Of a stretch of DNA of 64,000 bases, positions 11,940-32,853 are shown in pieces. This stretch comes from Spirochaetia bacterium (GTDB lineage Bacteria; Spirochaetota; Spirochaetia; Treponematales; Treponemataceae), in the NCBI GenBank assembly GCA_022768865.1, contig JALELH010000024.1, positions 1 to 64,000 on the forward strand, read 5' to 3'. Below the pieces are notes generated by a model. That model saw only the letters and a list, made by a program, of their open reading frames with translations, was not told where the DNA came from and did no database searches. Numbering within the stretch: position 1 is the first letter of the stretch; every line of letters begins with the position of its first letter. The position numbers and the translations under genes are program-made.

Positions 11940-13571
11940 TTGTGCCCAGACTGTAATGTTCCTGTAATTCAAGAAAAAAACGAAAACGGTAATTTCTGCC
12001 CGGAATGTAAAAGCAAGCTTACGTATCTGGCATCAGATTTGCGGCCTGTTTATCCTAAAGAAAGGCTGCTTTTTGAATTGATTAAAAAAGTCCCGTTGAA
12101 ATATATAGACGATTCTGTATGGTGTTCAAACAATAAATATTACATAAACGGTAAGGTTCAGAATTTATCAAATACAGAACTTGAAAAAGCTGACATAGAA
12201 GAAATTATTGACGGTTTGGAAAAATATAAAATTCAAAATGAAAAGAATAATTTTGATTTTTATATTAGAAAATTTTGCAAGGTAAACAAAAACAGGTTAG
12301 ATGAAATAACGGATGAAGCATTTTCTTTTGTAAAGGAAGTTGCAGATTCTGTAAATAACGAAAACCTTGTAATTTCATTCAGCGGTGGAAAAGATTCAAC
12401 TGTCACGGCGGATGTTGTTACAAAGGCGCTGAGCAATCCAAGTATAGTTCATATTTTCGGTAACACAACACTTGAATTTGAAACAACTTTAGAATATGCA
12501 GAACGTTACAAGAAAAATCATCCCTACGCAATTTTCATGACTGCAAAAAATGAAGACCAAACCTTTATGAAAGTTGCAGAAGATATTGGACCGCCTGCAA
12601 GAATGATGCGGTGGTGCTGTTCCATGTTTAAAACCGGTCCCATTTCAAGAATACAGAATAATTTATTTGGAACAGAACGAATAACGACTTTTTACGGAAT
12701 AAGAAAAGTAGAATCAGTTTCTCGAAGCAAATATAACAGAATCCAAAAAGGCGGAGAGGATGTAAAAATCCAAAAGCAGACAGTTGCTTCTCCAATTTTC
12801 TTTTGGAAAGACTGCGACATTTGGCTTTATTTGACTTCAAACGATGTTGATTTTAATGATGCTTATAAACTTGGTTATGACCGTGTAGGATGCTGGTGCT
12901 GCCCGAACAACAACAGCCGTGCTCAGTTTTTGGCTCAAATCTATATGAAAGATAAATATAAAGCCTGGAGAGAATTCCTGATTTCCTTTGCAAAAAAGGT
13001 TGGCAAGCCAGACCCTGAAGTTTACGTAGACAGCGGAAAATGGAAAGCACGGCAAGGCGGCAATGGATTAAAATCCAGCGAAGACGTAAAGATTAAATTT
13101 ACAAACTGCACAACAGAAGAACACGCTAAGATTTACAGGATAAATAAAAGATGTGATGAAAGCTTTACAAACCTTTTTGTACCGTTTGGAAAAGTTTCTA
13201 AAGAATTGGGACAGAAGATAATAAATGAAACATTGGTTTTAGATGTAAAAACAAACGTGCCGATTATTTCAATTCAGCCCTTTGCAAAAAATGATTTTGA
13301 TTTTGCTGTAAAAGTAAAAACAATGAATGCAAGTGACCACGAAGATTTACAGCGGCGGATTGGCTATCAGGTGCGAAAATTCAATTCATGCAGACAATGC
13401 TTAAAATGTGAAGCTCTTTGCACAAAAGGAGCAATTTCCATTATAGGAAATTCATATTTTATTGATGAAACAAAATGTATCCATTGCAAAATGTGTGTTT
13501 CTCAAAAGTATTTAACAGGCGGATGCATGATGGATAAATATTTAAAAACGAAGGCAGAAGAAAATGACTGA
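11940..13571 (+). CDS. DndC-like PAPS-reductase/ATP-pyrophosphatase enzyme with zinc-ribbon N-terminus and ferredoxin C-terminus
   Basis: Likely the sulfur-insertion enzyme of a DNA phosphorothioation-type system. Visible parts: zinc-ribbon cysteines (C-P-D-C, C-P-E-C), PP-loop S-G-G-K-D-S at residues ~148-153, R-W-C-C-S-M-F-K and G-C-W-C-C-P cysteine motifs, and a C-terminal 4Fe-4S region (C-R-Q-C-L-K-C-E-A-L-C; C-I-H-C-K-M-C). TTG at 11940 is only the first in-frame start-like codon and has no ribosome site. The open frame extends back to 11868 and encodes a further C-H-T-C pair, so the true start lies on the invertible segment (11699-11889) in its opposite orientation. It is the first of nine tightly packed genes, overlapping the DUF4007 gene by 8 bases. 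Confidence 0.85.
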   Translation: MCPDCNVPVIQEKNENGNFCPECKSKLTYLASDLRPVYPKERLLFELIKKVPLKYIDDSVWCSNNKYYINGKVQNLSNTELEKADIEEIIDGLEKYKIQNEKNNFDFYIRKFCKVNKNRLDEITDEAFSFVKEVADSVNNENLVISFSGGKDSTVTADVVTKALSNPSIVHIFGNTTLEFETTLEYAERYKKNHPYAIFMTAKNEDQTFMKVAEDIGPPARMMRWCCSMFKTGPISRIQNNLFGTERITTFYGIRKVESVSRSKYNRIQKGGEDVKIQKQTVASPIFFWKDCDIWLYLTSNDVDFNDAYKLGYDRVGCWCCPNNNSRAQFLAQIYMKDKYKAWREFLISFAKKVGKPDPEVYVDSGKWKARQGGNGLKSSEDVKIKFTNCTTEEHAKIYRINKRCDESFTNLFVPFGKVSKELGQKIINETLVLDVKTNVPIISIQPFAKNDFDFAVKVKTMNASDHEDLQRRIGYQVRKFNSCRQCLKCEALCTKGAISIIGNSYFIDETKCIHCKMCVSQKYLTGGCMMDKYLKTKAEEND

Positions 13572-14475
13572 AACAGAAAAAAATAAAGAATTAAAATTCC
13601 GCGCTCATGAAAGCTTTTACATCCGTAAAGGCTGGCTTTCTAAGGGAATGAAAAACGTTGCAAAGAAAAATGATTTATTCATTGATAAAAATGTTCCGGC
13701 TACAGTTTCTCTTGGACTTGGAACTAATATGGTTAAATCCTTAAAATATTGGCTTGGCGTTACAGGCTTAATAGAAAAAGATACAAAGAAAGGATGCGTA
13801 AAGCTTTCTGACTTTGGAAAAACACTTTTTGAAAATGACAAATATCTGGAAGAAATGGGAACAATACAGCTTTTGCAATATAAGCTGGCATCTAATTTTT
13901 GCGAAGCTACTTCCTGGTTTTACTTTTTCAATGAATTTAATTTTATTGAATTTACAAAAGAAGATTTTATTCTGGAAATCAGAAAATTCATTTCAGAAAA
14001 GTCTGCCAAAGAAATTCAGGATTCCTCTTTAGCAAGTGACTTTGAATGCATTATCAATACTTATCTTTCTAAACATAAAACTACGGAAGAAGAAATTGAT
14101 CCGGAAAATAATATTTCCTGCCCGTTGGCAGAACTGAATTTAATTTCTGTCGCCCATAAGAAAAACGGTATTACAACTTATAAAAAAACTTCATCGTCAT
14201 CTTTAAGTTTTAATAAATGGATAATTCTTGCAATTATCTGTGACAATGCAAAAGGAAAGCTTGAAATATCCATAGATGATTTGCTCAATGCCCAATGCAA
14301 TATAGGAAAATGCTTTAATTTGGATTCAATTTTGCTGCTTGATATTTTACAGAATATCGAAAAGTCCGGCGAATTAAAAATAATAAGGACAGCTGGTCTT
14401 GATGTAATTCAGCTAACGAAATTATTTTCTTTTGAAGACTGTGTTCAGAATTTCTACAAGGAATTGAATAAATGA
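13564..14475 (+). CDS. DUF4007 family protein
   Basis: A 303-residue protein with the DUF4007 opening F-R-A-H-E-S-F-Y-I-R-K-G-W-L-S-K-G-M (residues ~12-28), a winged-helix-like region with L-G-x-G-T-N-M-V-K-S-L-K-Y-W-L, and A-T-S-W-F-Y-F-F-N-E-F-N near 115. DUF4007 proteins are commonly encoded beside PAPS-reductase-like genes in defence islands. They probably bind DNA or act as adaptors, but the function is not established. It overlaps the preceding gene by 8 bases and the following ATPase gene by 4, so translation is coupled. A shorter relative with the same mid-domain pattern is encoded at 27787-28605. Confidence 0.85.
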   Translation: MTETEKNKELKFRAHESFYIRKGWLSKGMKNVAKKNDLFIDKNVPATVSLGLGTNMVKSLKYWLGVTGLIEKDTKKGCVKLSDFGKTLFENDKYLEEMGTIQLLQYKLASNFCEATSWFYFFNEFNFIEFTKEDFILEIRKFISEKSAKEIQDSSLASDFECIINTYLSKHKTTEEEIDPENNISCPLAELNLISVAHKKNGITTYKKTSSSSLSFNKWIILAIICDNAKGKLEISIDDLLNAQCNIGKCFNLDSILLLDILQNIEKSGELKIIRTAGLDVIQLTKLFSFEDCVQNFYKELNK

Positions 14476-17400
14476 ATGAAATGATAAAAATAGAAGATGG
14501 CTTTCAATACTCTGTAAACATTGCATACGATTTGCAAAACAAAAAGAAGTTGCAGTCGTTTATTCCCACACACGATGCACTTAAATTTATAGAAGAAATC
14601 CTGTTAAGCACAAAATCAGATTCAACGGAAAGGGCGCGTGTTTTAGTCGGTGCATACGGAAAGGGAAAATCTCATCTTGTCTTGACGGTTTTAAATTTAT
14701 TAAAGGACGAACCTTTGGAAAAGTTTCCTAAATTAAAAAAGGAAATTGAAAAAGACAATAAGTTAAAGGCTTTGATTCAAAATTATTCTGAAAGCAAATG
14801 TAAGCTGCTGCCTGTTTTAATAACAGGAACTTCTTCCAGTGTAAGCCAGAATTTTTTGAATGCATTGGAAAAAACTCTTTTACAAAACAAGTTAGACAAT
14901 CTGATGCCTGAAACTAATTTTAAGTCTGCAATTCAGACAATTCTACGCTGGCAGAAAAAATACCCTAAAACACTTTTACAGTTTGAAGAACAAATTGGAA
15001 AAAAGGCAGAAACCATAATTGAAAAACTTCAGGATTATAATAACAAGACTTATGAACAGTTTTTGAAGATTTATCCTGAACTGACTTCCGGTGGCAAGTT
15101 TAACCCTTTTGGTTCTTTTGATGTTGTAGAAATTTTTGAAAGTGTTATAAAAAGTCTTAAAGAAAAAACTGAATATACAGGCATTTATGTTGTTTATGAT
15201 GAGTTTTCAAAATATCTTGAAACAAATATTGCTGAAGCCACAATCAGCGATACAAAAATGCTTCAGGATTTTGCAGAAAAATGTAACCGTTCCGGAAAAG
15301 AGCAGCTTCATTTAATGCTTATTTGCCATAAAGAAATCAGCAATTACATTGATAAATTGCCAAAGCAGAAAATTGACGGCTGGCGTGGTATAAGCGAAAG
15401 ATTTTTGCATGTTCGATTGAATAATAATTTTTCACAAACTTATGAAGTCATTCAAAATGTAATCATTAAAGATGAAAAGTTATGGAATGAATTTGCCAAA
15501 AAAAACGAAGAAAAGTTTCAAGGTCTTATTTCAAAAGAAACGGTATCTTTGTTTAATGAATTTTCTAAGGAACAAATAAAACAATTGCTTGAAGGATGCT
15601 ATCCTCTTCATCCTGTTTCAATCTATATTCTTCCACGTCTTTCTGAAAAGATTGCACAAAACGAAAGAACTCTGTTTACCTTTTTGTCTTCAAAATCTGC
15701 AAATGGTCTTGAAAAGTTTTTACAGAAACATAATCAGGATAAATTTAATTTATTAACTCCGGATGTTTTGTATGACTATTTTGAACCTTTATTTCAAAAA
15801 GAAATTTATTCTGATGAATTATATAAAACCTATATTTTGACTTCAAAAATACTGGAAAAGATTTGTGATAACAGTCTTGGTTCAAAGATTATAAAGACAA
15901 TTTCTTTAATCTATATTCTTCAGATATTTGAAAAACTTACTCCATCAAAAAATACGATTATTGAATCTTTCCGCTTTGACTATTCAAGAGAAGAGGTTGA
16001 AAAGGCGTTAGATAGTCTTGTAAAAAATGAATGCCTTGTTTATTTAAAGCGCAGCAATAATTTTTATTCATTAAAGCAAAGTTCCGGTGTTGACATTACA
16101 GCAGAAATTCAAAAAAGAATTCAAAAGAATTCTCATAACTTTTCTTTAAAACAGACGCTGAATCAATGCAATTTTAACAAATTTCTTTATCCGCTACGCT
16201 ATAATGATGAAAACGAAATAACCCGTTATTTTTCATTCAGTTTTATTGCCCAGGATGAAATTAAAGAAGACACAAACTGGACTATAAAAAGTGAAAATAT
16301 AAAAGCCGACGGTGTTATTTATGCAGTTTTGTTAAAGACTAAAAATTCCAGAAAAGAAGTTTTAGATTCCTTGACTAAAAACAGTTATTCTTCAAAATGT
16401 GTTTTTATTCTACCCAAGAAATTTGCAGAAATAGAAAAAATAGCACAGGAATTGAATGCCGTTGCTGAGTTAAAATCTGAATGCCAGCAGGATTCTGTTT
16501 TACAGAATGAATATGAAATTATTTATGACGATTTAATGGAAGTTATTGATAATTTTGTTTCTATCTATACGCAAAGCCAGAATGCTAATGCAGATTACTT
16601 TTATAATGGCGAAATTAAAATCATAAAAAGAAAGTCTGATGTTTCAGAACTGCTTTCTGATATTTGTGATAAGTTTTATTCAAAAACACCAGTAATTGTA
16701 AACGAGGCATTGAATAAAAATATTATAACAAGCATGTCCCTTCGTTCCAGAAATAAAATTGTTGCAGAACTTTTAAAGACAAACCTTCAGAAGCAGCTGG
16801 GTATTACTTCAAGTCAGGAACTTTCTGTCATGCAAAGCGTTTTGTATAAAACTCAAATCCTTTGTGATGATGAAAAATCAGATTGTGCAAAAATAAATTT
16901 GATTCCAGCTGATAAAAAAGTATCTTTCTGTTTGGATTTAATTAAGAATTATTTTACTAGTATAAAACAAGGCAAGCAAAAAAGTTTTGAACTTCTTTAT
17001 AAAGATTTGACTTCTGATAAAAATGGCATCGGAATGCGTAAAGGAATCATTCCGTTGCTTATTGCATGTGTTATTCATGAATATAAAAAGCAGATTATTT
17101 TTTATCATCATGCAGAACAGGTTTTGCTTTCTGTTGAGCTGCTTAATAAAATAAATGAAACCCCTGAAGAATATTCTGCAGGCTTTATGGACTGGTCTAA
17201 AAATGAAGAAGATTTTGTAAATGATCTGGCTTTGATTTTTGAACAATACATAAATGACAGCGAAAAAAATAATTCCTATGACTTTGTATTTAATGCAATG
17301 CGCCGTTGGTATGTTTCTTTGCCTAAATTTACTAAAGAAACTCGGCTTTCATACTGTAATTCAGAAATACCACTAGTTTACAAAGCATTCTTAAAAGATT

Positions 17401-18077
17401 TAAGGCAGGCAGCAAGCAGTCAGGATTTTATTTTCGTAAAACTAAAGAAATCATTTGCTTCTGTCAATGAAATAAAAAATGCAAAAGTTTATTTTGATGA
17501 AGTTTTAGAAAAACTGATTTTATTTTTCAAGAACGAAGTTTATAAAGTTTTTGCAAGCCAAGATGAAAAAGAAAAGACACTTTGCAAGGTTTTATTTGAT
17601 TGGTCTGATTCATTAAATAAAGCGGTTTTTAATGTTGTCTTTAGTGATAATACTTCTAAATTCCTTCAAACTTGTAATGTGCAGAATGATTCTGATTTAT
17701 ACCTGATAAAACAAATCGGACTTATTGCAACAGATTTAAAGTTTGAAGACTGGAATGATAAAACTTTTGAAACCGCAATTAAAAACATAAAAGGCTTTAA
17801 GGCTAATGCTGAAAATTCTTCCTTTGAGGGTTCAGTCTTAGATAATCGGAACAATCAGGCAGTGGCCTTAAAGCCAGATTCTTATCAGCTTAATTTTGCA
17901 GATAAAGATGGAAAGTTGCAATCTAAGATTTTTGATAAAGCAGAACTTAGTCAAACTGCATTTCTTTTAGACCGTTCAATTAGGAATTCAATTAAAGGTA
18001 TGGCTCTTTCCATTAACGAAAGTGAAAAACGTCAGGTTTTAGTAAACATTCTTTTGGAATTATGCGGAGGTAAATGA
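14472..18077 (+). CDS. Large P-loop ATPase 1 (BrxC/PglY-like architecture)
   Basis: A 1201-residue ATPase. Walker A G-A-Y-G-K-G-K-S-H lies at residues 60-68 and Walker B V-V-Y-D-E-F-S-K-Y-L-E near 240. An arginine-rich G-W-R-G-I-S-E-R-F segment follows near 310, then Y-P-L-H-P-V-S-I-Y near 380; the rest is helical. The layout (early P-loop, D-E-F, Y-P-L-H-P, long helical tail) is like BREX BrxC/PglY ATPases. It shares these motifs in order with the 1411-aa protein at 28618, so the two are probably paralogues. In place of SMC-like DndD, it may power the modification complex with the DndC-like and DUF4007 proteins. This role is inferred from position. Confidence 0.75.
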   Translation: MNEMIKIEDGFQYSVNIAYDLQNKKKLQSFIPTHDALKFIEEILLSTKSDSTERARVLVGAYGKGKSHLVLTVLNLLKDEPLEKFPKLKKEIEKDNKLKALIQNYSESKCKLLPVLITGTSSSVSQNFLNALEKTLLQNKLDNLMPETNFKSAIQTILRWQKKYPKTLLQFEEQIGKKAETIIEKLQDYNNKTYEQFLKIYPELTSGGKFNPFGSFDVVEIFESVIKSLKEKTEYTGIYVVYDEFSKYLETNIAEATISDTKMLQDFAEKCNRSGKEQLHLMLICHKEISNYIDKLPKQKIDGWRGISERFLHVRLNNNFSQTYEVIQNVIIKDEKLWNEFAKKNEEKFQGLISKETVSLFNEFSKEQIKQLLEGCYPLHPVSIYILPRLSEKIAQNERTLFTFLSSKSANGLEKFLQKHNQDKFNLLTPDVLYDYFEPLFQKEIYSDELYKTYILTSKILEKICDNSLGSKIIKTISLIYILQIFEKLTPSKNTIIESFRFDYSREEVEKALDSLVKNECLVYLKRSNNFYSLKQSSGVDITAEIQKRIQKNSHNFSLKQTLNQCNFNKFLYPLRYNDENEITRYFSFSFIAQDEIKEDTNWTIKSENIKADGVIYAVLLKTKNSRKEVLDSLTKNSYSSKCVFILPKKFAEIEKIAQELNAVAELKSECQQDSVLQNEYEIIYDDLMEVIDNFVSIYTQSQNANADYFYNGEIKIIKRKSDVSELLSDICDKFYSKTPVIVNEALNKNIITSMSLRSRNKIVAELLKTNLQKQLGITSSQELSVMQSVLYKTQILCDDEKSDCAKINLIPADKKVSFCLDLIKNYFTSIKQGKQKSFELLYKDLTSDKNGIGMRKGIIPLLIACVIHEYKKQIIFYHHAEQVLLSVELLNKINETPEEYSAGFMDWSKNEEDFVNDLALIFEQYINDSEKNNSYDFVFNAMRRWYVSLPKFTKETRLSYCNSEIPLVYKAFLKDLRQAASSQDFIFVKLKKSFASVNEIKNAKVYFDEVLEKLILFFKNEVYKVFASQDEKEKTLCKVLFDWSDSLNKAVFNVVFSDNTSKFLQTCNVQNDSDLYLIKQIGLIATDLKFEDWNDKTFETAIKNIKGFKANAENSSFEGSVLDNRNNQAVALKPDSYQLNFADKDGKLQSKIFDKAELSQTAFLLDRSIRNSIKGMALSINESEKRQVLVNILLELCGGK

Positions 18078-19219
18078 TGGCGTATTTTGATAATGCAGCA
18101 ACAACTTTTCCAAAACCAGATTGTGTTTATGATTTTATGACGGAATTTTACAAAAGTTCTGGTGGAAATTATGGCCGTGGAAATTCATCGCAGGCAAAAA
18201 GTTCTGGCGTTATTATAAATGAAACACGGAATTTACTGCTGGAACTTTTTCATTGTCCTGCCAATCAGGTTATTTTTACTCCAAGTGCAACAATTGCGTT
18301 GAATATGATTATTCATGGGCTTGTCTTTAAAGGTGCAATAAATATTTATATTTCGCCATTTGAACATAATGCCGTAACACGGGTTTTGCATGCTATGGAA
18401 AAAACTCACGAAATAAAGGTTCATGTTTTAGATTGTGATGAGGACTTGAATTACGATTTTGAAAAAATCAAATATGCCTTTGAAGAAAATAAACCGGATT
18501 TAGTAATAGTCAGTCACGTAAGCAATGTTATCGGCTTGATTTCTCCTGTAGAAAAAATCTTTGAAATTGCTAAAAGTTTTAATGCCGTAACTGTTGCTGA
18601 TTGTTCTCAAAGTGCAGGTCTTGTGGATTTGAATTTAAGTCAGAATTTTGATTTTGCAGTCTTTGCCGGACACAAAACTCTTTACGGACCAACAGGAATC
18701 AGCGGTTTTATAATGAAAAAAGATTTTAATCTTCCGTCGGTTTTATTTGGTGGTACAGGCTTTGAAAGTTTGAATCAGGATATGCCTTCTTCTTTGCCTG
18801 AAAAGTTTGAAATGGGAACGCAGAATATTTTAGGAATTGCAGGCTTAAATGCCAGCTTAAAGTGGATAAAAGAAATTGGAGTTCAGAAACTTTTTGAAAA
18901 AGAAGTCCAAAACAGAAAATGTCTTTTAGAGATTTTTGAAAAATATGATTTTATAAAAGTTGTAGGCAATTCACAGAACCAAAATTTCACAGGCATTGTA
19001 AGCATTTTGTTAGACGGAATTTCAAGCGACAGTGCGTCAGCTGTATTTTCTGAACGCAATATTTCCGTAAGGACAGGTTTGCAATGTGCGCCGTTTGCAC
19101 ACAAGTTTTTAGGAACAAGCCCTGCTGGAACGATACGCTTCAGCACAGGGTGGTTTACCAATGATAAGGATTTTGAAGAATTAGAAAACGCTTTGAAAGA
19201 TATTGAAGATTTGATGTAA
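18074..19219 (+). CDS. Cysteine desulfurase family protein (DndA-like role)
   Basis: A 381-residue PLP-dependent class V aminotransferase that probably releases sulfur from cysteine for the DndC-like enzyme. Lys201 in A-G-H-K-T-L-Y-G is the PLP lysine. Cys338 in R-T-G-L-Q-C-A-P-F-A-H-K-F-L-G-T is the likely persulfide cysteine. H-x-x-x-V-T-R and S-H-V-S-N-V-I-G motifs are present. The R-T-G-x-x-C-A-P form is distinct from the IscS/NifS-type desulfurase at 45566-46744, so this copy is not the housekeeping one. Its start overlaps the ATPase stop by 4 bases, showing it belongs to the operon. Confidence 0.88.
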   Translation: MMAYFDNAATTFPKPDCVYDFMTEFYKSSGGNYGRGNSSQAKSSGVIINETRNLLLELFHCPANQVIFTPSATIALNMIIHGLVFKGAINIYISPFEHNAVTRVLHAMEKTHEIKVHVLDCDEDLNYDFEKIKYAFEENKPDLVIVSHVSNVIGLISPVEKIFEIAKSFNAVTVADCSQSAGLVDLNLSQNFDFAVFAGHKTLYGPTGISGFIMKKDFNLPSVLFGGTGFESLNQDMPSSLPEKFEMGTQNILGIAGLNASLKWIKEIGVQKLFEKEVQNRKCLLEIFEKYDFIKVVGNSQNQNFTGIVSILLDGISSDSASAVFSERNISVRTGLQCAPFAHKFLGTSPAGTIRFSTGWFTNDKDFEELENALKDIEDLM

Positions 19220-19234: not shown

Positions 19235-20950
19235 ATGAATGAACCGAATGCAAATTATATTGATTATTTAAATTCTCTTAACAGTTATAACGCAAAAAAC
19301 AAAAATGCTTATAGTGAAACAAATATTGAAAACAGTTTTTATAAACAGATGGCAGTTGAAGTTGGAATTTCCAAATACATTTCTTCAATAATAATGACTT
19401 CATCTCCGCAAGTTATAATTCTGTCAGGTCAGGCTGGAGATGGAAAAACAAGCATAATGTACCAGGTTGTAAATCAACTTGATTCGGAATATGAAATCAA
19501 GACAAAGGTAAATATTTTTGATATTACAGTTCAAGATAAAAAATGTACTTTTATAAAGGATTTCAGTGAATTGCCTGATGTAGAAAAAATTAAGAAATTA
19601 AAAGAAATTCTTTCATATCCTTCAAATAATAAATTTGCATTTATCGTTGCAAATACAGGACCTTTAATCAATACATTTGGTTCTCTTTTTGAAGAAGATA
19701 AAAGAGAAGATGCAAAAATGAAATTGATTGAGGCAATTAGAACAAGTGATGGCAAACAGAAGCCAATTTGTGGATATTCAATTTCTGTAATCAACATGGC
19801 TTCGATTGATAACAGCTATTTTTCTCCAAAATATCTTGAAAAGATTATTGATTCAAAGTTATGGAAAAAATGTAGTTCATGTGAAAAAAAAGATTTCTGT
19901 CCTATTTTTCGTAATCGGAATCTAATGGCACAGAATCCTGAATCGGTTCAGAATTTTCTGGAAAATCATTATATATGGTTGTCGGAACATGGCACAAGAT
20001 TGACTGTAAGAAGCATAATTGAACAGTTGTCATTCATGCTGACCGGCGGACTTTCATGTTCTTCCATTAAAAACGTGAACAATTCAAAATATTTATTTCC
20101 AAATTTATTTTTTGGTCTTTTAGGTTTTCAAAAAGATTCCAAAGCATTAAAAATGAATGCAGTAAAAGCCGCTTCGTCAAATGAATACTATTTAAAAAAG
20201 ATGCGTATTGATGAGCAGCTTATAGTAAAAGGTGATTATGAAAGTCTGTTTTCTGCCGAATGGGTGAACATAATTAAGAATATCGAAAAATCAGTTGATT
20301 TAAAATCAGATTTAGATAAAGAACGCAATTTGTTTTATTCTTTTTTGCGGAGAGTCTACATATTTCAAAACAATTCATCTGAAGAACAGAGAAAATGGGA
20401 TTTGGAAGACATTTTTTCAAGGAATTTTAAAACTTACCTTGATTACCGGAAAAACAATGCAAATATTCCAAGTAAAATCAAAAAACCGATTTTAGATGCA
20501 CTTTCCATGATTTATACAGGAATAAAAATAGGAAGCGGAAATAAAGTTCCCGTTACTCTCAATAAAAAATCAGGTGTTTTGCAAACAGTCCAGTTTGTTA
20601 CAGGTTATCTTGATACTGATGATTTTGATATAGAAAAAGTAAAATCAAATGATGGAAAAATCAACCAGACGAATGACATTTATTATTTTTATCCAACTGT
20701 AAAAGACGAACGTTTAAATATCAGATTGACACTGCCTTTGCTGGATTATTTTGATAATTTGCAGAAAGGAATTATTGAAACAGATATAGACCCGTTGCTT
20801 TCCAATGGCATTGAAAACTTAAAGGTACAAATTTCTGCAAAACTTGAAAGAAAAAAATCTTCAGGCCAATTTGAGTTGCTTATTGTAAAAAACAATGGAA
20901 ATAAAGCACTTAAATTGGAAATGTCTGACGATCAGATTTCCATACTATAG
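19235..20950 (+). CDS. dptF: DNA phosphorothioation-dependent restriction protein DptF
   Basis: A 571-residue ATPase matching DptF (DndF) in length and position, just before DptG- and DptH-like genes. The Walker A motif S-G-Q-A-G-D-G-K-T-S lies at residues 64-73. A zinc-like cluster C-S-S-C-E-K-K-D-F-C is near 211-221. In known Dnd systems, DptFGH restrict DNA that lacks phosphorothioate marks. It begins 16 bases after the desulfurase, behind AGAGGAAGG. Assignment rests on motif, length and gene order. Confidence 0.82.
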   Translation: MNEPNANYIDYLNSLNSYNAKNKNAYSETNIENSFYKQMAVEVGISKYISSIIMTSSPQVIILSGQAGDGKTSIMYQVVNQLDSEYEIKTKVNIFDITVQDKKCTFIKDFSELPDVEKIKKLKEILSYPSNNKFAFIVANTGPLINTFGSLFEEDKREDAKMKLIEAIRTSDGKQKPICGYSISVINMASIDNSYFSPKYLEKIIDSKLWKKCSSCEKKDFCPIFRNRNLMAQNPESVQNFLENHYIWLSEHGTRLTVRSIIEQLSFMLTGGLSCSSIKNVNNSKYLFPNLFFGLLGFQKDSKALKMNAVKAASSNEYYLKKMRIDEQLIVKGDYESLFSAEWVNIIKNIEKSVDLKSDLDKERNLFYSFLRRVYIFQNNSSEEQRKWDLEDIFSRNFKTYLDYRKNNANIPSKIKKPILDALSMIYTGIKIGSGNKVPVTLNKKSGVLQTVQFVTGYLDTDDFDIEKVKSNDGKINQTNDIYYFYPTVKDERLNIRLTLPLLDYFDNLQKGIIETDIDPLLSNGIENLKVQISAKLERKKSSGQFELLIVKNNGNKALKLEMSDDQISIL

Positions 20951-20959: not shown

Positions 20960-22492
20960 ATGAGTAATAAAGTTTTTCCTGCCGTACGAGATGAAAATGA
21001 AGAAAAATATCCTCCAGAAAAAAATAAATTGAGCAGACAAATTTTTGGCAACAGATTTTTGTCTGACCAAAATCTTTATGAATATCTGATTGAGTTTTTA
21101 CTTATTTTTGTTTCCGCAAAAGAAGAAAATGGAATTGAAGGTAAATTAAAATTTCATGATTCAAACGATTCTCTGTTTAGCTATTATGTTCAGCCAAGGT
21201 TAGGACTTAAAAGATTCATTTTTTACAACTATTCCAAAAAAGATAAATCGCTGCCTCAGGATAGGGATGCTTTAAAACTATTATGGACCGAACTTTCCAA
21301 AAAAATTGATAGTTCCGATGAAAAAGAAAAAAAAGAAATAATTGAATCTCTTCAGGATTTCTTTTACGGATATGCTGTAATCTTGAAAAAAAGGTCTTGG
21401 TGTGCTCAAGCCATTATGCCGTTATGTCCTGAACTAGTCTTTTGTGAAACTTCGCCCAATTTGAAGAAAAGAAAGAAGAATGTTGACTGGGAAAATGATA
21501 AAAAAACTATAGATACAAAGTTTGGGCATAAGCAGCGTAACTTTTTGGCAAGGGGCGGGGAGTTATATTATCTTCATCTTTTGCAGGGCTTGGAAAATCG
21601 ACCTGATGATAAAAAACAACTGGAGCTTTTGCTCAAAAATCTGATGACGGGCGATTCAAAAAAAATCTCAAACATAGCCAGTTTCATTCAGAATACTTGG
21701 GAAAAAGCCATTGGAGCGACTCCAGCAGATTTACAGGAAGAATTTTCATTGGATTTCATTCCTGTAAATGCATATAAGAATTGTGAAGACAATTCAATTT
21801 CTGAATTACTTAATTATTTGTCATGTCAGCTTCCTGTTGTCCGCAGACTGGATTTGCTTGCTAAGGGAATTATGTTTCAGGTTATGCGCATGATGTCTGT
21901 GGCAGTTGCTTCATATTTGGAAAGCAGCGAATTGCCATGGATAATTGATGTGTGTGGTTCAAAATCCTTTAAAAAATTCTGTCATAAAAGCTATAAATTA
22001 TTGGAAGAATCTTTTGACAGTGCATTAAATAAAGCGGGAACAAATTCTTCTGATAAAGAAAATACTCCTTCAAAGAAATATGAACATTTTAGAAAAGAAA
22101 AAACGGCATTTGCTTTTGGCATCTTTAAATCAAAAGGCAAGGAACTCCACTGCATTATTCCGACAAAAGGTCAGGATGAACGGTTCAGCATTTCAGAAGA
22201 TATTGTTTCATTTTTAGTTTTGTCAATTATTCCGCCAGAACAGCAAATGACATTTGATATGTTTTTAGAAAAAATATATGAACATTATAAAATTGTTGTT
22301 TCTGCAAAGGAATTTTCTAAATCCACAGCCTATACCTCGGAATTAGCAAACAGTTTGTCAAAAAGTTTTGAAGAAAATTCAGCTGCCTTTGAAAAACTTT
22401 TGAATAGTACGGGATATTTGATTGAATTATCAGACGCCACTTCTGTCGTGCAAAATCCATATAAGAGAATAGAAATCCAGGAGAATAAATAA
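20960..22492 (+). CDS. dptG: DNA phosphorothioation-dependent restriction protein DptG-like
   Basis: A 510-residue protein between DptF and DptH, which is the DptG position. I see no nucleotide-binding motif. It is helical and basic, with an aromatic N-terminal region (S-Y-Y-V-Q-P-R-L-G-L-K-R-F-I-F-Y) and a C-terminal winged-helix-like stretch. Its size is in the DptG range. The start lies behind GAGGTG, and its stop overlaps the DptH start by one base (TAATG), implying stoichiometric expression. Identity is inferred mainly from synteny. Confidence 0.72.
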   Translation: MSNKVFPAVRDENEEKYPPEKNKLSRQIFGNRFLSDQNLYEYLIEFLLIFVSAKEENGIEGKLKFHDSNDSLFSYYVQPRLGLKRFIFYNYSKKDKSLPQDRDALKLLWTELSKKIDSSDEKEKKEIIESLQDFFYGYAVILKKRSWCAQAIMPLCPELVFCETSPNLKKRKKNVDWENDKKTIDTKFGHKQRNFLARGGELYYLHLLQGLENRPDDKKQLELLLKNLMTGDSKKISNIASFIQNTWEKAIGATPADLQEEFSLDFIPVNAYKNCEDNSISELLNYLSCQLPVVRRLDLLAKGIMFQVMRMMSVAVASYLESSELPWIIDVCGSKSFKKFCHKSYKLLEESFDSALNKAGTNSSDKENTPSKKYEHFRKEKTAFAFGIFKSKGKELHCIIPTKGQDERFSISEDIVSFLVLSIIPPEQQMTFDMFLEKIYEHYKIVVSAKEFSKSTAYTSELANSLSKSFEENSAAFEKLLNSTGYLIELSDATSVVQNPYKRIEIQENK

Positions 22493-25400: not shown

Positions 25401-27783
25401 TGTTTATAAATTGCACAGCAAAGGAAATTGGATAATCTGCATTGACAGCGGTTTGGATGGAGCCTTGCTAAAAAAAGAAAATGGAAGCCATTCAAAAGAT
25501 TATTCAATTATCGGTTTTAGTACTGGCAACGGTAATTACGGAAAGTACAATATTACCATAACAGCCAGAAAAGAAATGCTTAAAATAATTGAAGATAGTT
25601 TTAAAACAAGACTGTCACGTTTATTTCATTGGGAATCAAAATTAATTGATTCTGTAGTTTCAAGATGTATGGCGGAAGCTGCGGGGCTGGATGGAATAAG
25701 TTTATTGTCGGCAATCAATTTAAAAGACAACAACATAAATGAATTCATGGCGTATGTGTTGACTTCTTTCAGGGAAAAATCCCTTGCAAAAAACAGTCCT
25801 TTAAAAGTTTTGATACATCTTGATTCTTACAAACATTGGTTTACGGATGAAATTATTGATGAATTAGACAATTCCGCATCAAGAACAGATTTCTTGGTAT
25901 TGGAAATTTCTGATTTTAAAAATGATACACTTGTTATAGATGCAAATGTTGTTGAATGTAAAATTTCTACCATAAAAAATGCAGATGGGCACAAGGAAAA
26001 AGCCGTTAAGCAAGTAAATCATAGTTTAAAACGTTTGCAGCAGATATTTGATCCAAATTCAACTTCAGTTTTACGAAGATACTGGTATGCTCAATTATAC
26101 AGGGCATTGACTTTTGCACAGGTAACATTTGCCAATACTTCCGGTGATTATGAAGAAATTGCAGAAAAGCTCAGATTGGTGCTTAATGGATGTTTTAAAA
26201 TTACATGGAAAGGAGAGGTCCTTGGATATTGGGTCGATTCAGATGGTGATAACGAGATAATCGAAAATTCAATGTCTGACGAAGGAAATATTCCGATTGC
26301 AATTCATAACATCCCGCAAAAAATGATGCAGGAAATTTTAGTGGATGACAGTTTATATTCAGCAAATTTTGTCAGCGGCGTAGATGAAAATTTGCTGATG
26401 ACAAAGGAAGAAAAAGAAGAATTTAATAAAGAAAATGGACAGACGGATGAGTTTACAGATGATTCTACTGATAAATCCAGTGAATCATCTGATTCTTCGG
26501 AACAAAAAGAACTGAAATCATTTGAGACTTCAGCATTAGTTAAATCTTCTAAAGAAAATGAATCAAATCAGAATACGGAACCTGTTTCTTCAACAAATAC
26601 ATCAGATGCAAATCAAAAAAATGAAGCTGAAACAGCATGCAATACGGAAAATTCCGTTCAGTCAGCTCAAAATGCTTTGTCAGATGTAAGAGTCTTGGTT
26701 GGAAATGATAAACAAAGCCAGAAGGTTTATTGGGAATTTGGAAATCCAAAATTAACAAACAGGCATTTACTGATTACGGGAACTTCAGGACAGGGAAAAA
26801 CATATTGTATTCAGGCTTTGCTTTATGAACTCACAAAATCAAATATTTCTTCAGTTATATTTGATTATACTGAGGGATTCAGACTTGATCAGGTAGATGA
26901 AGAATTTAAGGAAAAGATTGGTGTCAAATTAAAACAAAGAATTGTAAAAGTTGAAAAGGTTCCTGTTAATCCGTTTAAGATTTTTGAACAGGATATTGCC
27001 GGAACAATATTACCAGAAACGAGTGTTGACGTCGCAAATCGTTTGAAGAGCATTTTTTCTCATGTATATAATTTTGGCCCACAGCAGGAGTCTGCTGTAT
27101 ATGAAGCTGTTAAGAATGGCATTGATAAATACGGTGAGCAAATGAATATGGATTTGTTCATACAAGAATTAAGCAGTGTAAAGAATAAGTCAGTGGATAC
27201 AGTTATATCAAAAGTAAAGCCTTTTACCGATGCCGTGGAATTTGATGTCAGCAGCAATTTTGATTGGGAAAGTATTGTTTATCCAAAAGATTCTCAGTGC
27301 TTTGTATTTCAGCTGACAGCTTATGACCGTGACACTCAGGTAATTATTACTGAATTGTTGCTCTGGAATTTGTGGTATTACTCAAATAAAAATGGAAACA
27401 AAGACAAGCCGTTTGTTGTTGTATTGGACGAAGCACAGAATCTGTCACATAAAAAAGGTTCTCCAAGCGAAAAGATTCTTACTGAAGGTCGAAAATTTGG
27501 TTGGTCGGCATGGTTTGCAACGCAATCGTTGCAAGTTTTAAATGATGATGAAGTAACTCGTTTGCTTCAATCGGCATTTAAGCTTTATTTTAAGCCAACA
27601 GACGCAGAAATGATAAAGATGGCAAAGCAATTGGATCCTCAGGATTCATCTAGATTTTTAGGAACTTTAAAAAGTTTGAACAAAGGACAATGCATTGTAG
27701 TGGGAGATCGCTGCAACGCATCAGGTAATTTTACAGTTACACGTCCAACTGTAACAAATGTTACTTCTTTAATTAAAAGGTAG
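22492..27783 (+). CDS. dptH: DNA phosphorothioation-dependent restriction protein DptH (HerA/FtsK-like ATPase)
   Basis: A 1763-residue protein, the size expected of DptH. The N-terminal ~1300 residues lack familiar motifs. A low-complexity Ser/Thr/Glu/Asn linker (~1310-1400) precedes a C-terminal HerA/FtsK-type ATPase with Walker A G-T-S-G-Q-G-K-T at ~1429-1436 and Walker B V-V-V-L-D-E-A-Q-N-L near 1640. These are followed by G-R-K-F-G-W-S-A-W-F-A-T-Q-S, the HerA-like sensor region. DptH is believed to translocate DNA during restriction. The nuclease centre is not obvious by eye. The next gene starts 3 bases after the stop. Confidence 0.85.
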   Translation: MKFLTKTIIGQIKNNLPSSEEEMMVKINGFSYPKIYKELADSISKFCSENNITCNIKLANNKYNDFYEKNIELPSLDSMKQNEWVALEQSITYYRNLHDSKLLVLLGTEEEDDKDGLLNCSEITPESLARNLDGKYSEIFKTALGDIFNSDEENVINKLYKDLFEYVPADICKLSKIADDWTDVSNIDEFIERFYLSLPEWKLPFRKDNLRTQREILRNNKNILQIEYSIISHSLFNDLSKSKFDEYLKKFSEYECSTDSENPGETGRYADSSFDWSNQSVDSYGEYVSLLTDFISSNDIERNREKLLGCDISIAEDIFNLKLEKEKKQSKKSEIALGGSPIKVFTQILLNSLVNAKNEQLDFSKFKIEIKKVSLVTGYSENETSDSDDALVQAWKNVCVHTNGITDYIQHNRQWKCNDNDISIDISPADIFNPQICDKNIVEATSSSKKNSSIEMEITCFDSNGSSIKDLKQKYKWNFTNNEAWINEFSEMAASEILENEEYYIPLSELKNIKDLICSSSEEEFFDLISNSDLSLKKEFDICNYVCDKLKSSSDSDIKINAAFIELGSAFIKFGKDIRDKGYYNLLISNDSSMFKFVQNYKELGKLIVKEILPDNRKWVYDAFIHSFCIEENENSVRAESETDCCIVPPWNPVTLEKLNDQKTFFLDGCNEWWENISDKSSSSKKIEPLMETLLEMSVVKNSVVVFPASGQKLFGSINSFGSYSLYASDTFENESRVRDLIQKDLIFDDTFTNDELIGISENSKMILNLINSYTRSFVHAKTNLKLVFINPGELQPVVSAVYNYVKCFRKNDKDSQISIELHILIKPENRGGKNYLSYWMNEFFSEDEHTSVKTYLNEWSNMSELISLIEPNNDILFFMDFLKSNDFKFYSSKESAREISSCKFPVVYKPRLVSNTSGSKRSVELSQPQFKAEQIHTQAVYYRKENIKVFDNEFIAAQEMKFDDESYDTVYKLHSKGNWIICIDSGLDGALLKKENGSHSKDYSIIGFSTGNGNYGKYNITITARKEMLKIIEDSFKTRLSRLFHWESKLIDSVVSRCMAEAAGLDGISLLSAINLKDNNINEFMAYVLTSFREKSLAKNSPLKVLIHLDSYKHWFTDEIIDELDNSASRTDFLVLEISDFKNDTLVIDANVVECKISTIKNADGHKEKAVKQVNHSLKRLQQIFDPNSTSVLRRYWYAQLYRALTFAQVTFANTSGDYEEIAEKLRLVLNGCFKITWKGEVLGYWVDSDGDNEIIENSMSDEGNIPIAIHNIPQKMMQEILVDDSLYSANFVSGVDENLLMTKEEKEEFNKENGQTDEFTDDSTDKSSESSDSSEQKELKSFETSALVKSSKENESNQNTEPVSSTNTSDANQKNEAETACNTENSVQSAQNALSDVRVLVGNDKQSQKVYWEFGNPKLTNRHLLITGTSGQGKTYCIQALLYELTKSNISSVIFDYTEGFRLDQVDEEFKEKIGVKLKQRIVKVEKVPVNPFKIFEQDIAGTILPETSVDVANRLKSIFSHVYNFGPQQESAVYEAVKNGIDKYGEQMNMDLFIQELSSVKNKSVDTVISKVKPFTDAVEFDVSSNFDWESIVYPKDSQCFVFQLTAYDRDTQVIITELLLWNLWYYSNKNGNKDKPFVVVLDEAQNLSHKKGSPSEKILTEGRKFGWSAWFATQSLQVLNDDEVTRLLQSAFKLYFKPTDAEMIKMAKQLDPQDSSRFLGTLKSLNKGQCIVVGDRCNASGNFTVTRPTVTNVTSLIKR

Positions 27784-27786: not shown

Positions 27787-28605
27787 ATGAAAAATATAAA
27801 TTTTGCCCAGACTTTTAAGCCTGAAAAACAATATATCAGCAGTTTACTTAAAATTACATTAATAAATGAAGTAATGACAGCAAAAGAAGTTTCTTTGGCA
27901 ACTGGAATTCCTATGGGAGAACGAAGTGGAAAAGTTATACCACATATTGAGTATTCTAAATATATGGGACTTTTAGATTATGAAAAAATTGATGGGAATA
28001 CCTTTAAACTGAGCCTGACTTCTTTGGGAAATATTGTTCTTGAAGAGGATCCAGGGTTAAAAGAAGAACTCACGCTTGTTTTACTGCATTCAATGTTGAC
28101 AAGAAATGGTGCAGGTGCTCCCTTGTGGGGTGTCATGTTTCAAACTGTTTTTCCTAAATATCACGGAAGCATAATAGTTGAAGATGCAATAAAAGAACTT
28201 AATTTGATCTATGATAATAAAGTGACAAGGAAGAATTTTTCACCTTTCTTAAATTCTTATGAAGATTTGTTCGCACCTCTTGATTTTATCAATTTTAAAG
28301 ATGAACAAATAAAACTGTCTTATTCGCAAAAAATAGATAAAGATTTCCTTTATTTATATGCCTTCATTTTATTTTCATATTGGGATGAATTGTATCCGAA
28401 TCGCATTGAAATAACTGCCGAAGAATTTGCCAGTCTGAAATATGGAATCAGATTGAATATGGATTCTCAAACGGAATATGCGGTTTTAGATTTTTTAAAT
28501 GAAAAAGGGTTGATTAGATTAAACAGACAATTAAACCCTTACACCATTTTAAAATCTTCTGCAAAAGACGAGTTAATAAAAAAGTTATACAGCGAATTGT
28601 TTTAG
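27787..28605 (+). CDS. DUF4007-like protein, paralogue of the 13564-14475 product
   Basis: A 272-residue protein that looks like a divergent DUF4007 relative. It has a winged-helix region (G-E-R-S-G-K-V-I-P-H-I-E-Y-S-K-Y-M-G-L-L). The pattern E-E-D-P-G-L-K-E-E-L-T-L-V-L-L-H-S-M-L then N-G-A-G-A-P-L-W-G-V-M-F follows. The latter aligns with N-D-K-Y-L-E-E-M-G-T-I-Q-L-L-Q-Y-K-L then N-F-C-E-A-T-S-W-F-Y-F-F in the first DUF4007 protein. The H-E-S-F-x-x-R-x-G-W-L opening is missing. Like the first copy it directly precedes a giant ATPase gene. It may adapt that ATPase to DNA or to DptFGH; this is inference. Confidence 0.65.
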   Translation: MKNINFAQTFKPEKQYISSLLKITLINEVMTAKEVSLATGIPMGERSGKVIPHIEYSKYMGLLDYEKIDGNTFKLSLTSLGNIVLEEDPGLKEELTLVLLHSMLTRNGAGAPLWGVMFQTVFPKYHGSIIVEDAIKELNLIYDNKVTRKNFSPFLNSYEDLFAPLDFINFKDEQIKLSYSQKIDKDFLYLYAFILFSYWDELYPNRIEITAEEFASLKYGIRLNMDSQTEYAVLDFLNEKGLIRLNRQLNPYTILKSSAKDELIKKLYSELF

Positions 28606-28617
28606 GGAGATGAGATT

Positions 28618-31600
28618 ATGAAATTTTCAGATGTAATTGAATTCAGAAAAGACGTATATTTTGAAGGTGCTGTTCAAGCCGACTGGTTTTATAATACGGA
28701 GCAGTCTGCAAAAGTCGCAGTGAATTATGTTTTCCATGGAAATCAGTATTTCGACGGCGTTGTTGAGCAATTATCCTCCAATAGAGTTGATTCAGTTACG
28801 CTTGTAAAAAAAATTGCAGAAAAATTCTTTACGCCTGACTCTAATCCCCTGACTTTAGCCATTGCTGATTATGGAACTGGAAAATCTCACCTTGCTGTTA
28901 CAATGGGACATTTGTTTTCAGGTCCAAAATATTTTCCTTCTGTTTTTGAAAAAGTTATTTCCAATATTAGCAAAATCAGTTCTGAAGAAGCTGATGAAGT
29001 TCAAAAATTATGCAATTCCAATAATCTTGTTTTGATGATTAACGGAATGAAAGATTTTAATCTTAATTCAGAATTGCTGAAAGTAACTCAAAAAAGCTTA
29101 AAGCTATATGGAATTGATGATTCGTTTCTGTCAAAAATCAGTAAAACTCAAGAAACGGCTGTCAATTTTTTAACAAAAACTGAAAATACTTCAATAGATT
29201 TGTATGAAAAGTATGCGGCTGAAAAGGGGTGGAGTGAAAAAGAAACTGAATTGGTAAATAGGTTACGTGAAAATCTTTTAACAGATGATGATGCGTTCTC
29301 TATTGTTGATTCAGTTTATAATGACATAACAGGTCAGAATATTTCCTGGACAAATGGAATTTCTGCCAGAGAAATCCTCGATTTATTGGTTTCAGAGCTT
29401 TGTGAAAAAGAAAAAATCTTTGGCCATGTTGTAATTTTATTTGATGAATTCGGTCGTTTCCTTGAATATGCAGCAGGAATCAACAATTCTGGAAAAACTG
29501 GAGATTCTGCTCTTCAACAGATGTTTGAATCGGCACAGAATGCTAAAGGTAAGATTCAGATTGTAAACTTCATTCAGTCAGATATAAAAACATATCTTCA
29601 GCGTGTAGATCAGACAACAAATATCAGCAGATATATTGGTCGATACGATGCAAGTGATAAATATCATATTTCATCAAATCTTGAAACTGTGTTTGCAAAT
29701 TTAATTTATCGTAAGAACAGAAAGGCATTTGAAGATATAATCATAATGTGGCAATGTGATGAAACACAACAATGGCAGTCTGCAAATCATGATATGAACC
29801 GCTGGCTTTCGACTAAAGGTATTTGGCGTGAATACAGGACTTTTAGGGATGTAATAGTTGAAGGAATTTATCCTTTGCATCCTTTGTCAACCTATATGTT
29901 GACTCAACTTTCTGATTACCTGCAAAAAAGATCTTCTTTAGCCTTGATTGCTTTTTATATAGAAAACTTAAAAGAAGTTGATATTGAAAAAGAGCATCCT
30001 CTTATTATGCCGGAAGAACTTATGCGTGGCGAATTGTTCAATGAAATGCTTTCTGCAGAAGAATCTGGAAGGCAAGCATCTCAATTTTGTATATCGTATA
30101 ATTCAATCATTTCAAAAATAGGTGATAAACTTACTGAAGATGCTTTAAAAGTATTGCGTTCAAATTTAATACTAAGGATACTCCGTTTTAAGACAAGAAG
30201 TTATGATGATGTAAAATCAGCCGTTAGGTTCTGTTCCGGATTGTCAGATGATGAAGTAAACAAGGCCCTTCAATTGCTTGAACATGAATATGCGGTTTTA
30301 GGATTCGACAACTTTGCCAATTGCTTTGACTTTATGGCGGAGGCAAACGGCTTCCATGACTATAAAATCATAAAAAATAGAAATCTTGTAAAAGTTACTG
30401 TGAATGCTTCAGATTTTGATGATGTTCAGATTAGGAAGCTTTTTGAAATAGAAAATCCTGTTGATACTGATTTTGGTTTGAATCACAATATTCAAACTTC
30501 AGAATGGATGTTTAAGCAATACCTGTATACAGCTGAAAAATTTACAAGTTCTACAATTCAGTCTATCATTAAAGAGTGGAAAAATTCAAAATCATATAAT
30601 TTACCTAAAGGACAATTAGTATGGGTTTATCTTAATAAAGACACAAAAGAAGAAACTGTCACTGCCATTAAAGAATATTTTAAATTAGCGGAAGGAACTC
30701 CTGTTCTGATTATGTTGATAAATGATTCAGGTAATACATTGTGGAAACTCATTCAGGAATATAAATGCCTTTCTTCTTTTGATGAAATAAATAGAAAGAA
30801 ATTTTCAAAATATTATGACGAAGATTTTGATAAAGTGCGGCTTAATATTTCAGAGCAATTTAAGTCATTGAAAAAGCAACGAAAATATATATCTTCTGCC
30901 GGAGTTTCAGAATTTGAAGGAAAGTTATCAAAAGAATTAACAAAAATATTTGAAAAAATATACACGGAAGCAATTCCTTTTAATTTTGATGGATTTACAG
31001 GTTCTCAAGGTATTTCGACATATTTTACAATATTCAATTTGTTGCTTTCGGAATCAATAAGTTATGACAGCATTCACAATTTTCCTGTCAACGTCAGAAA
31101 TAGAATTGAATCAGTTTTATCTTATGATGCAGCAAATTCTTGGAAATGTTTGAGCAGGGAAGGGGCTGTAATTCCTCCTGAAAATGACAAGGTAAAGAAA
31201 ATTTATGATGAATTAAAAAATGAATACATAAGTAAAAAATCGCTTTCGCTTGCTGCTGCATTTATTATTTTCACACAAAAGCCTTATGGTTTATGTGAAG
31301 AAATCATAATGCTTTTGATTGCAGTTCTTGTATCTAGCATGAACTTTGGAACTAAGGTTTCTTATAGAAATAACCTTTATTCAATTAGTGATTGGAAAGG
31401 ATTACTTACATCGGAACGAAAATCAATATCAGAATATGAACGCAAACGAATTATAACAATAGTAAAGGATTCTGCGTTAATACAAGTTGATACAGGTGCT
31501 GTTGAAGAAAAATTCTTAAAATTGTTGAATGAAATTGATGCAAATAAAAATTTAAAGAAATTTCCTGTTTTAGAAAAGGATTTAAATGAATTACTGACTG

Positions 31601-32853
31601 AAGAAAATACTCCTGAAGTTTTGAGAAGTAGATTCGCAATTGCAGAAAAATCAATAAAAGACGGTTTGAATGCATATCGGATTTGGAATAATGAAATATC
31701 AAGATTGCAGGAGAATTTGATTGTCAACAGTATTTCTGACAAAGTTATAAAAGCATTGGATGTTATGACTTCGGTAATATTATTACCAGAAAAATACTCG
31801 GATATTTTTTCAAGATATTCGCAAACAGAATTGGAAGAAGATATAAAAAAAATAAAATTATCAGCTGAGTCTGTTATTACAATAAATTTTGAAGAGTGGC
31901 TATCAACCTTAAAATGTATTAATGAAGATTCAATGTATGAATTGAAATATATTGAAAAAACTTATTGTGAAAAACTAAGAGATATAAATTTTGATGAATT
32001 TGCAAATAAACTCTCTAATCACATTAACACTCAAATTAAAGATATTAATGCAATAAAAGAAAGAATTCTGTTAAAGAAAGAATTAGAATCTTTTAACAAT
32101 GGAACAAGTATTTCTGAATTTACTCCTGTTCAGACAATTGATGATATTCTTGAAACAGCAGAAGAATTGTATTTAAAAATATCAAAAACAGAATCATCAT
32201 TTGATGAAGAGTTAAAACATCTTTCTTGTAAATTTAAATCTAAAATGATTCTGATTCAGGATTGTAGAAAAGAAATTGATAAAGAAATTAATTCAATTAA
32301 ATCTGATATAAAAAAACTCTGTTATGTTGAAAAAATACCAGAAATTCAAAAACGAATAAACAAGTTATATGGTCGTGGAATTTCAAAAATTGATAATCCT
32401 GAGTTTGAAAAATTTACAACTCTTTCAGCAAAATTTAATAAAGATTTAGATGAGTTGGAAAGCTGTAATAATTCTTTGGTTAGATTCAATGAATTGAAAA
32501 AAGAATTGCTTTCAAAATATAGTAAAGTAGAATTCGATTTCAATCAGTTAAAATTTATTAGATCTAAAATCGATAGTATGAGTTCTGATTTTAGTTATCA
32601 GGATGTTAAGTGGGCCAGGGAAAATCTTGACATTGAAGGAAAAGACAGAAAATATTTGATTCTCTGGAAAGACAAAATTCAATCATTGCCTGATTATTTG
32701 TCGGAAAAGACTTTAAAAGAAATAGAAAATAAAAAAATTTTGGTTGAAGAAATCCTAAGCAGGCAGAATATTCAAACTGTTATAGAGTATTTTGAGAAAT
32801 TATCCGGTGAAGAAAAAATTAAATGCCTCGAAGAATTAAGAATCAGAGTGTGA
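28618..32853 (+). CDS. Large P-loop ATPase 2, paralogue of ATPase 1, with coiled-coil C-terminus
   Basis: A 1411-residue ATPase. Walker A D-Y-G-T-G-K-S-H lies at residues 84-91 and Walker B V-I-L-F-D-E-F-G-R-F-L-E near 275. Y-P-L-H-P-L-S-T-Y near 420 matches ATPase 1's Y-P-L-H-P-V-S-I-Y in kind and order. The last ~350 residues are rich in Lys/Glu heptads and probably form long coiled coils, which ATPase 1 has to a lesser degree. It ends the operon. The long coiled coil recalls SMC-like DndD in a loose sense, but the fold is different as far as I can tell. A strong AGGGAGATG site precedes the start. Confidence 0.75.
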   Translation: MKFSDVIEFRKDVYFEGAVQADWFYNTEQSAKVAVNYVFHGNQYFDGVVEQLSSNRVDSVTLVKKIAEKFFTPDSNPLTLAIADYGTGKSHLAVTMGHLFSGPKYFPSVFEKVISNISKISSEEADEVQKLCNSNNLVLMINGMKDFNLNSELLKVTQKSLKLYGIDDSFLSKISKTQETAVNFLTKTENTSIDLYEKYAAEKGWSEKETELVNRLRENLLTDDDAFSIVDSVYNDITGQNISWTNGISAREILDLLVSELCEKEKIFGHVVILFDEFGRFLEYAAGINNSGKTGDSALQQMFESAQNAKGKIQIVNFIQSDIKTYLQRVDQTTNISRYIGRYDASDKYHISSNLETVFANLIYRKNRKAFEDIIIMWQCDETQQWQSANHDMNRWLSTKGIWREYRTFRDVIVEGIYPLHPLSTYMLTQLSDYLQKRSSLALIAFYIENLKEVDIEKEHPLIMPEELMRGELFNEMLSAEESGRQASQFCISYNSIISKIGDKLTEDALKVLRSNLILRILRFKTRSYDDVKSAVRFCSGLSDDEVNKALQLLEHEYAVLGFDNFANCFDFMAEANGFHDYKIIKNRNLVKVTVNASDFDDVQIRKLFEIENPVDTDFGLNHNIQTSEWMFKQYLYTAEKFTSSTIQSIIKEWKNSKSYNLPKGQLVWVYLNKDTKEETVTAIKEYFKLAEGTPVLIMLINDSGNTLWKLIQEYKCLSSFDEINRKKFSKYYDEDFDKVRLNISEQFKSLKKQRKYISSAGVSEFEGKLSKELTKIFEKIYTEAIPFNFDGFTGSQGISTYFTIFNLLLSESISYDSIHNFPVNVRNRIESVLSYDAANSWKCLSREGAVIPPENDKVKKIYDELKNEYISKKSLSLAAAFIIFTQKPYGLCEEIIMLLIAVLVSSMNFGTKVSYRNNLYSISDWKGLLTSERKSISEYERKRIITIVKDSALIQVDTGAVEEKFLKLLNEIDANKNLKKFPVLEKDLNELLTEENTPEVLRSRFAIAEKSIKDGLNAYRIWNNEISRLQENLIVNSISDKVIKALDVMTSVILLPEKYSDIFSRYSQTELEEDIKKIKLSAESVITINFEEWLSTLKCINEDSMYELKYIEKTYCEKLRDINFDEFANKLSNHINTQIKDINAIKERILLKKELESFNNGTSISEFTPVQTIDDILETAEELYLKISKTESSFDEELKHLSCKFKSKMILIQDCRKEIDKEINSIKSDIKKLCYVEKIPEIQKRINKLYGRGISKIDNPEFEKFTTLSAKFNKDLDELESCNNSLVRFNELKKELLSKYSKVEFDFNQLKFIRSKIDSMSSDFSYQDVKWARENLDIEGKDRKYLILWKDKIQSLPDYLSEKTLKEIENKKILVEEILSRQNIQTVIEYFEKLSGEEKIKCLEELRIRV

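Follow-up and report, generated by a model that had tools for sequence, protein, structure and literature searches.

Nine open reading frames lie on the plus strand at nt 11940-32853 of the window (the whole 64,000-nt stretch of DNA analysed), with neighbouring genes overlapping by 1-8 bases or separated by no more than 15, much as a first-pass annotation had described for nine co-directional, tightly packed genes. PADLOC and Pfam profiles give the order SspD/BrxP-like, SspB (DUF4007), SspC, SspA, SspF, SspG, SspH/DndH, a second DUF4007 protein (DUF4007') and an SspC-like ATPase (ATPase'), the last two on weak matches to DUF4007/SspB and SspC-like ATPase; NCBIfam has no name for genes 2, 6, 8 and 9. 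The first gene, sspD (nt 11868-13571), specifies a PAPS-reductase/ATP-pyrophosphatase of the BrxP-like SspD subtype, with an N-terminal zinc ribbon and a C-terminal ferredoxin-like Cys cluster. It is followed by sspB (nt 13564-14475), a DUF4007 protein and predicted DNA recognition/nicking subunit of the modification side (match to PDB 6JUF/6LB9, E 4e-16), by sspC (nt 14472-18077), a giant AAA+ ATPase placed in the modification module by PADLOC (E 3e-127) and by the ATPase tree described below, and by sspA (nt 18074-19219), a cysteine desulfurase according to its profile matches. SspB, SspC, SspD and the desulfurase together complete the SspABCD set.

An SspFGH cassette comes next, consisting of sspF (nt 19235-20950; a P-loop/STAND-like NTPase, PADLOC SspF E 6e-32), sspG (nt 20960-22492; PADLOC SspG E 5e-30) and sspH (nt 22492-27783). 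SspF and SspG match classical SspF/SspG with 46-48 bits and show no DptF or DptG match. SspH is chimeric, with a weak match to classical SspH in the middle of the protein and a DptH-like C-terminal stretch of ~630 residues that carries PD-(D/E)XK and HerA ATPase domains, the region from about profile position 1119 onward scoring 452 bits against Priestia DptH and 13-26 bits against classical SspH. The PD-(D/E)XK-like residues D1133, E1155 and K1157 and the HerA motifs GTSGQGKT and LDEAQN are invariant in ten sequences. The earlier naming of these three genes as DptFGH holds for the C-terminal half of SspH; F and G are of the Ssp type. The operon ends with DUF4007' (nt 27787-28605; Pfam DUF4007 E 8e-7), a second, divergent SspB-fold protein assigned below to the restriction module, and ATPase' (nt 28618-32853; 1411 aa), a second giant ATPase of the BrxC/SspC superfamily with zero Pfam matches, DUF6079 included. 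The two DUF4007/giant-ATPase pairs seen at first pass are upheld by Pfam, PADLOC and structure matches, and there are five co-directional restriction genes rather than three.

Profile searches with models for DndB, DndD, DndE, PglZ, BrxL and adenine methylases identified none of the nine proteins, in agreement with the absences listed at first pass; a type II methyltransferase model matched gene 1 weakly, over the PAPS-reductase domain. PglZ was not found genome-wide either (the genome is 90% complete), and a whole-genome search for DndE gave no match, as did its control queries. The operon has the BrxC-type ATPase with DUF4007 that marks BREX type 4 and lacks PglZ and, among its nine proteins, any BrxL model match, so it was correctly judged not to be standard BREX. 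The PglZ, DUF6079 and HerA set of BRC systems is likewise incomplete, as PglZ was not found and DUF6079 was unmatched. The view of the locus as a mosaic phosphorothioation-type modification-restriction operon agrees with the profile identities. It had also been described as a Dnd operon with parts missing and large ATPases filling the gap; a degenerate Dnd operon was rejected on the profile searches. In Ssp systems SspB and SspC stand in the DndD/DndE position (PMC10853773), so the absence of DndD and DndE is expected and genes 1-4 are a known module.

A probable inversion switch upstream of sspD

The reading frame of sspD is open from nt 11868 without any ATG, GTG or TTG before the TTG at nt 11940, and a conserved zinc-ribbon motif (CHTC) is encoded upstream of that codon. 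The start at nt 11940 given at first pass is accordingly not retained; that TTG is not the true start, and the start codon likely lies inside an inverted segment. Inverted repeats of 21 nt (nt 11695-11715 and 11873-11893; 20/21 match) with a 157-nt spacer bound a probable invertible segment at nt 11695-11893. As assembled, sspD has no start codon until the TTG within its conserved N-terminus (OFF). When the segment is inverted in silico, sspD gains an in-frame ATG behind GGAAAG and, by eye, a promoter-like TTGCTT-17-TACAAT; the computed promoter count for this stretch is at background level. Such repeats occur in seven Treponema loci including the window (taking the T. saccharophilum plasmid and G379 as one), five of them OFF and two ON as assembled; the repeats take in the initial codons of sspD and enclose segments of 106-934 nt (window; L093, L115, L008, L111, L116, L117, L120). 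L117 (ON) and L008 (OFF) are relatives: for the OFF locus, inversion predicts a leader, SIQRTCKMTRPVPKND, that comes close to the ON leader of its partner, SIQRTCKMTEPVTKND. Judging from these sequences, the segment is probably a switch that inverts start codon and promoter together. In nine Clostridia-type loci, a search ahead of sspD found no inverted repeats.

As to a recombinase for the segment, contig C54 carries two tyrosine recombinases, without an apparent link to it. One further Treponema contig (L114, G090:C8) stops 139 bases upstream of an sspD with no in-frame start codon, an end that might reflect an assembly break at an inverting segment. An HNH endonuclease gene (nt 10227-11264, plus strand) precedes the operon, and relatives with 34-57% identity adjoin Ssp operons in several other Treponema (L093:17035-18072, L008, L111), divergent from the operon there and on the same strand in the window; this is an association only. 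Upstream of the HNH gene are tandem-like 23-bp repeats without a long ORF (nt 9869-10073) and, at nt 9078-9434, a short DUF3990 (ADP-ribosyltransferase-like) ORF, a candidate toxin-type gene. A Mutator-family transposase in two overlapping frames (nt 33227-34425) lies directly downstream of the operon.

Conservation and affiliation of the second DUF4007-ATPase pair

Relatives of ATPase' were sought with a profile built from three sequences, which found 51 loci; a scan of genome contigs with the single sequence gave no match, and none was found in viral contigs. Twelve of the relatives, with about 40% identity, come from eleven Clostridia loci and one labelled as a Chloroflexi MAG; ATPase' is present in these by construction, having been used to retrieve them. 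The protein is full-length in all but L023, where the contig end cuts the gene. The order SspA-SspF-SspG-SspH-DUF4007'-ATPase' is found in every locus long enough, SspD-B-C lie ahead of sspA in 9/9 assembled cases, and the order D-B-C-A-F-G-H-DUF4007'-ATPase' is identical in all nine fully assembled Clostridia-type loci, which are from rumen or gut. Because these loci had come via ATPase', a search with SspG only was run on 394 genomes of one order; it added two loci, both in the full nine-gene order and with restriction-gene identities of ~24-37%. As this order recurs elsewhere, it is no accident, and the nine-gene operon is real and conserved. Damaged copies also occur: in one SspG-found locus ATPase' lies in three frames (G1081, L127:10254-14249), and in Eisenbergiella tayi SspG is split in two (L020:2390-3936), from either decay or sequencing errors.

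Ssp modules also occur without the pair. On three proteobacterial plasmids (Sinorhizobium, Rhizobium, Methylibium) classical SspF, SspG and SspH (PADLOC E-values down to 0) form a three-gene set convergent to sspBCD, and the DUF4007' and ATPase' profiles found no match beside it. A tblastn search of plasmids with SspG gave no match, and several plasmid SspH matches were dismissed as conjugation or DUF87 proteins. Ten Treponema loci with SspDBCA of the window type (among which L119 is damaged, and the look-alike T. saccharophilum plasmid and G379 loci count once) have neither FGH (0/10) nor the second pair (0/10); as effectors, some carry a Pbe-type helicase with an ABC ATPase and others a helicase, an ATPase and a phospholipase D together.

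The ten complete loci were used to ask which arm the pair belongs to. Pairwise identities correlate at 0.94-0.98 within the D, B, C and A block and at 0.79-0.97 within the block made up of F, G, H, DUF4007' and ATPase', but only at 0.37-0.60 between the two; DUF4007' and ATPase' themselves correlate weakly with D, B, C and A (r 0.37-0.48) and strongly with F, G and H (r 0.79-0.97). For example, L014 and L015 share 59% identity in ATPase' and merely 27% in SspC. The modification cassettes are of two types, and in quick LG+G4 trees of ten rows a grouping by modification type was rejected by the FGH data (AU p 3e-49) and by the DUF4007'-ATPase' data (AU p 1e-6), the FGH and DUF4007'-ATPase' trees being nearly identical. 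Since both datasets reject that grouping, it follows that the modification cassette was swapped as a whole, the pair remaining with FGH. These sequence comparisons support the second pair as a member of the restriction arm, not the modification arm, and the two pairs are thus not equivalent, SspB-SspC being part of modification and DUF4007'-ATPase' of restriction. They also make it improbable that the pair is a second SspB/SspC set that shares SspD and SspA and confers a different phosphorothioation motif. Such a second specificity would fit the SspB fold of DUF4007' and the proposal that DUF4007 proteins are target readers (PMC12839542), but the pair follows FGH rather than D and A when the modification cassette is exchanged, it is missing from the related Treponema SspDBCA operons with other effectors, and DUF4007' has other residues at most of the SspB signature positions (HE-F-R-GW-KG, GxNMV-RYW).

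In a quick, unrooted tree of 49 ATPases, ATPase' makes up one clade and groups with second ATPases from loci of cyanobacteria, Chloroflexi and Thermomicrobium in which DUF4007 and BrxC-like genes lie ahead of PglZ and BrxL. Every SspC falls across a 100-support branch from ATPase', and a tree constrained to join ATPase' with SspC from its own systems was rejected (p 5e-6). By this separation from all SspC, ATPase' is an old second lineage. A recent duplication of the operon's SspB-SspC as the source of the pair is rejected by the same tree. The AlphaFold model of DUF4007' (pLDDT 90.7) has the SspB crystal structures 6LB9/6JUF as its top three PDB matches (TM ~0.71), and a model of ATPase' residues 1-516 (pLDDT 77.7) gave BrxC for all of the top six; DUF4007' thus models as SspB and the ATPase' N-terminus as BrxC. 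Walker A (YGTGKS) and Walker B (FDEFGR) of ATPase' are conserved in 14 relatives. That the closest kin of the pair outside its own family adjoin PglZ-BrxL could mean that it is left over from BREX-4, or is an independent defence system lying downstream by accident. This is very unlikely, given that the FGH loci showed no PglZ or BrxL homolog and that the pair keeps a constant order, lies within a few bases of its neighbours and has diverged in step with FGH. Among the BREX-4-like loci, those of cyanobacteria, Chloroflexi and Bacteroidota (L005, L006, L027-L064) carry SspB-SspC-SspD and, ahead of PglZ-BrxL, another pair of the form DUF4007-(small gene)-BrxC; in some cyanobacteria the second pair accompanies PglZ-BrxL without SspBCD nearby.

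Relation to known systems and proposed mechanism

The SspABCD-SspFGH combination was published in 2021 by Wang et al. (PMC8092258), and the present operon resembles that system (Vibrio anguillarum FF-93 type) in its SspA-D module, its detectable SspF and SspG homologs and its operon logic. The classical SspFGH module has three genes convergent with sspBCD on the three proteobacterial plasmids, whereas here there are five and they are co-directional, the three-gene count being as published and perhaps not defining for SspABCD-SspFGH; the SspH C-terminus is DptH-like, unlike that of classical SspH. The operon shares PAPS reductase, DUF4007, BrxC-like ATPase and cysteine desulfurase with BREX type 4 and with the BREX-4-like loci of cyanobacteria and Chloroflexi that have two ATPases (PMC12839542). 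Many of those loci combine, as here, an SspB-SspC pair with an additional DUF4007-BrxC pair, but their effector is PglZ-BrxL and not SspFGH. DndABCDE-DptFGH is similar in the nuclease-HerA half of SspH and, by analogy, in a presumed restriction of unmodified DNA, and differs in having DndB, DndD and DndE, while F and G here are Ssp-type. BRC systems likewise bring together a BrxC-type ATPase, DUF4007, a STAND-type NTPase and HerA, but they have PglZ and DUF6079, and their seven listed components do not include a phosphorothioation module (PMC12839542). The operon is a variant of Ssp restriction-modification and not a separate kind of system; only its last pair (DUF4007' and ATPase'), which is the new element, and the DptH-like C-terminal half of SspH distinguish it from the known one. 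The first-pass description of an under-described variant stands for the arrangement, of which no description was found in the openly available main texts searched, but not for genes 1-4 or the SspABCD-SspFGH combination.

Sulfur mobilisation by SspA, activation by SspD, target opening by SspB-SspC and single-strand phosphorothioation are established for other Ssp systems. By analogy, SspA of the modification arm would take sulfur from cysteine and SspD would activate it, while SspB-SspC would locate the target and open it for phosphorothioation of a single DNA strand. Given the restriction-arm membership, predicted folds, conservation and BREX-4-like ATPase kinship found here for the second pair, the operon is probably, though well short of certainly, a two-arm phosphorothioate restriction-modification system in which the pair is the dedicated recognition and loading complex of the restriction half. 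DUF4007', as an SspB-fold DNA-binder, and ATPase', as a BrxC-like AAA+ motor, would inspect target sites and, where sulfur is missing, load or activate SspFGH, with ATPase' acting as a motor or loader as BrxC is thought to do for PglZ. The HerA motor of SspH would then translocate and its PD-(D/E)XK domain cut; sulfur inspection, loading and cutting are envisaged here from what is known of these families. The probable inversion before sspD would turn all nine genes on or off together, and no nuclease would then be made without the protective mark.

Against a dedicated complex stands the published SspFGH, which is functional in E. coli as a three-gene set (PMC8092258), as well as the classical loci without the pair; the FGH effector thus does not always need it. 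Because classical SspFGH manages alone, on the plasmids too, the pair could be a brake or a specificity factor, and the operon an ordinary SspABCD-SspFGH in which the pair modulates FGH, for example by inhibition on self DNA, instead of directing it. This seems unlikely, as the invariant Walker motifs and the effector-side BrxC kinship favour, if indirectly, an active role.

Beyond this locus, a broader possibility, offered tentatively and at slightly less than even confidence, is that phosphorothioate restriction-modification systems can employ two distinct reader-motor complexes of the SspB/BrxC type, the one marking and the other attacking DNA, that the attack complex is an interchangeable adaptor for two unrelated effectors (SspFGH and PglZ-BrxL), and that the Treponema system is inversion-switched via promoter and start codon. 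With separate marking and attack pairs in one natural locus, either function could be deleted without the other, and a shared adaptor would tie BREX-4 to SspFGH. Control by inversion of a start codon would suit a defence system that would be self-toxic if half-expressed.
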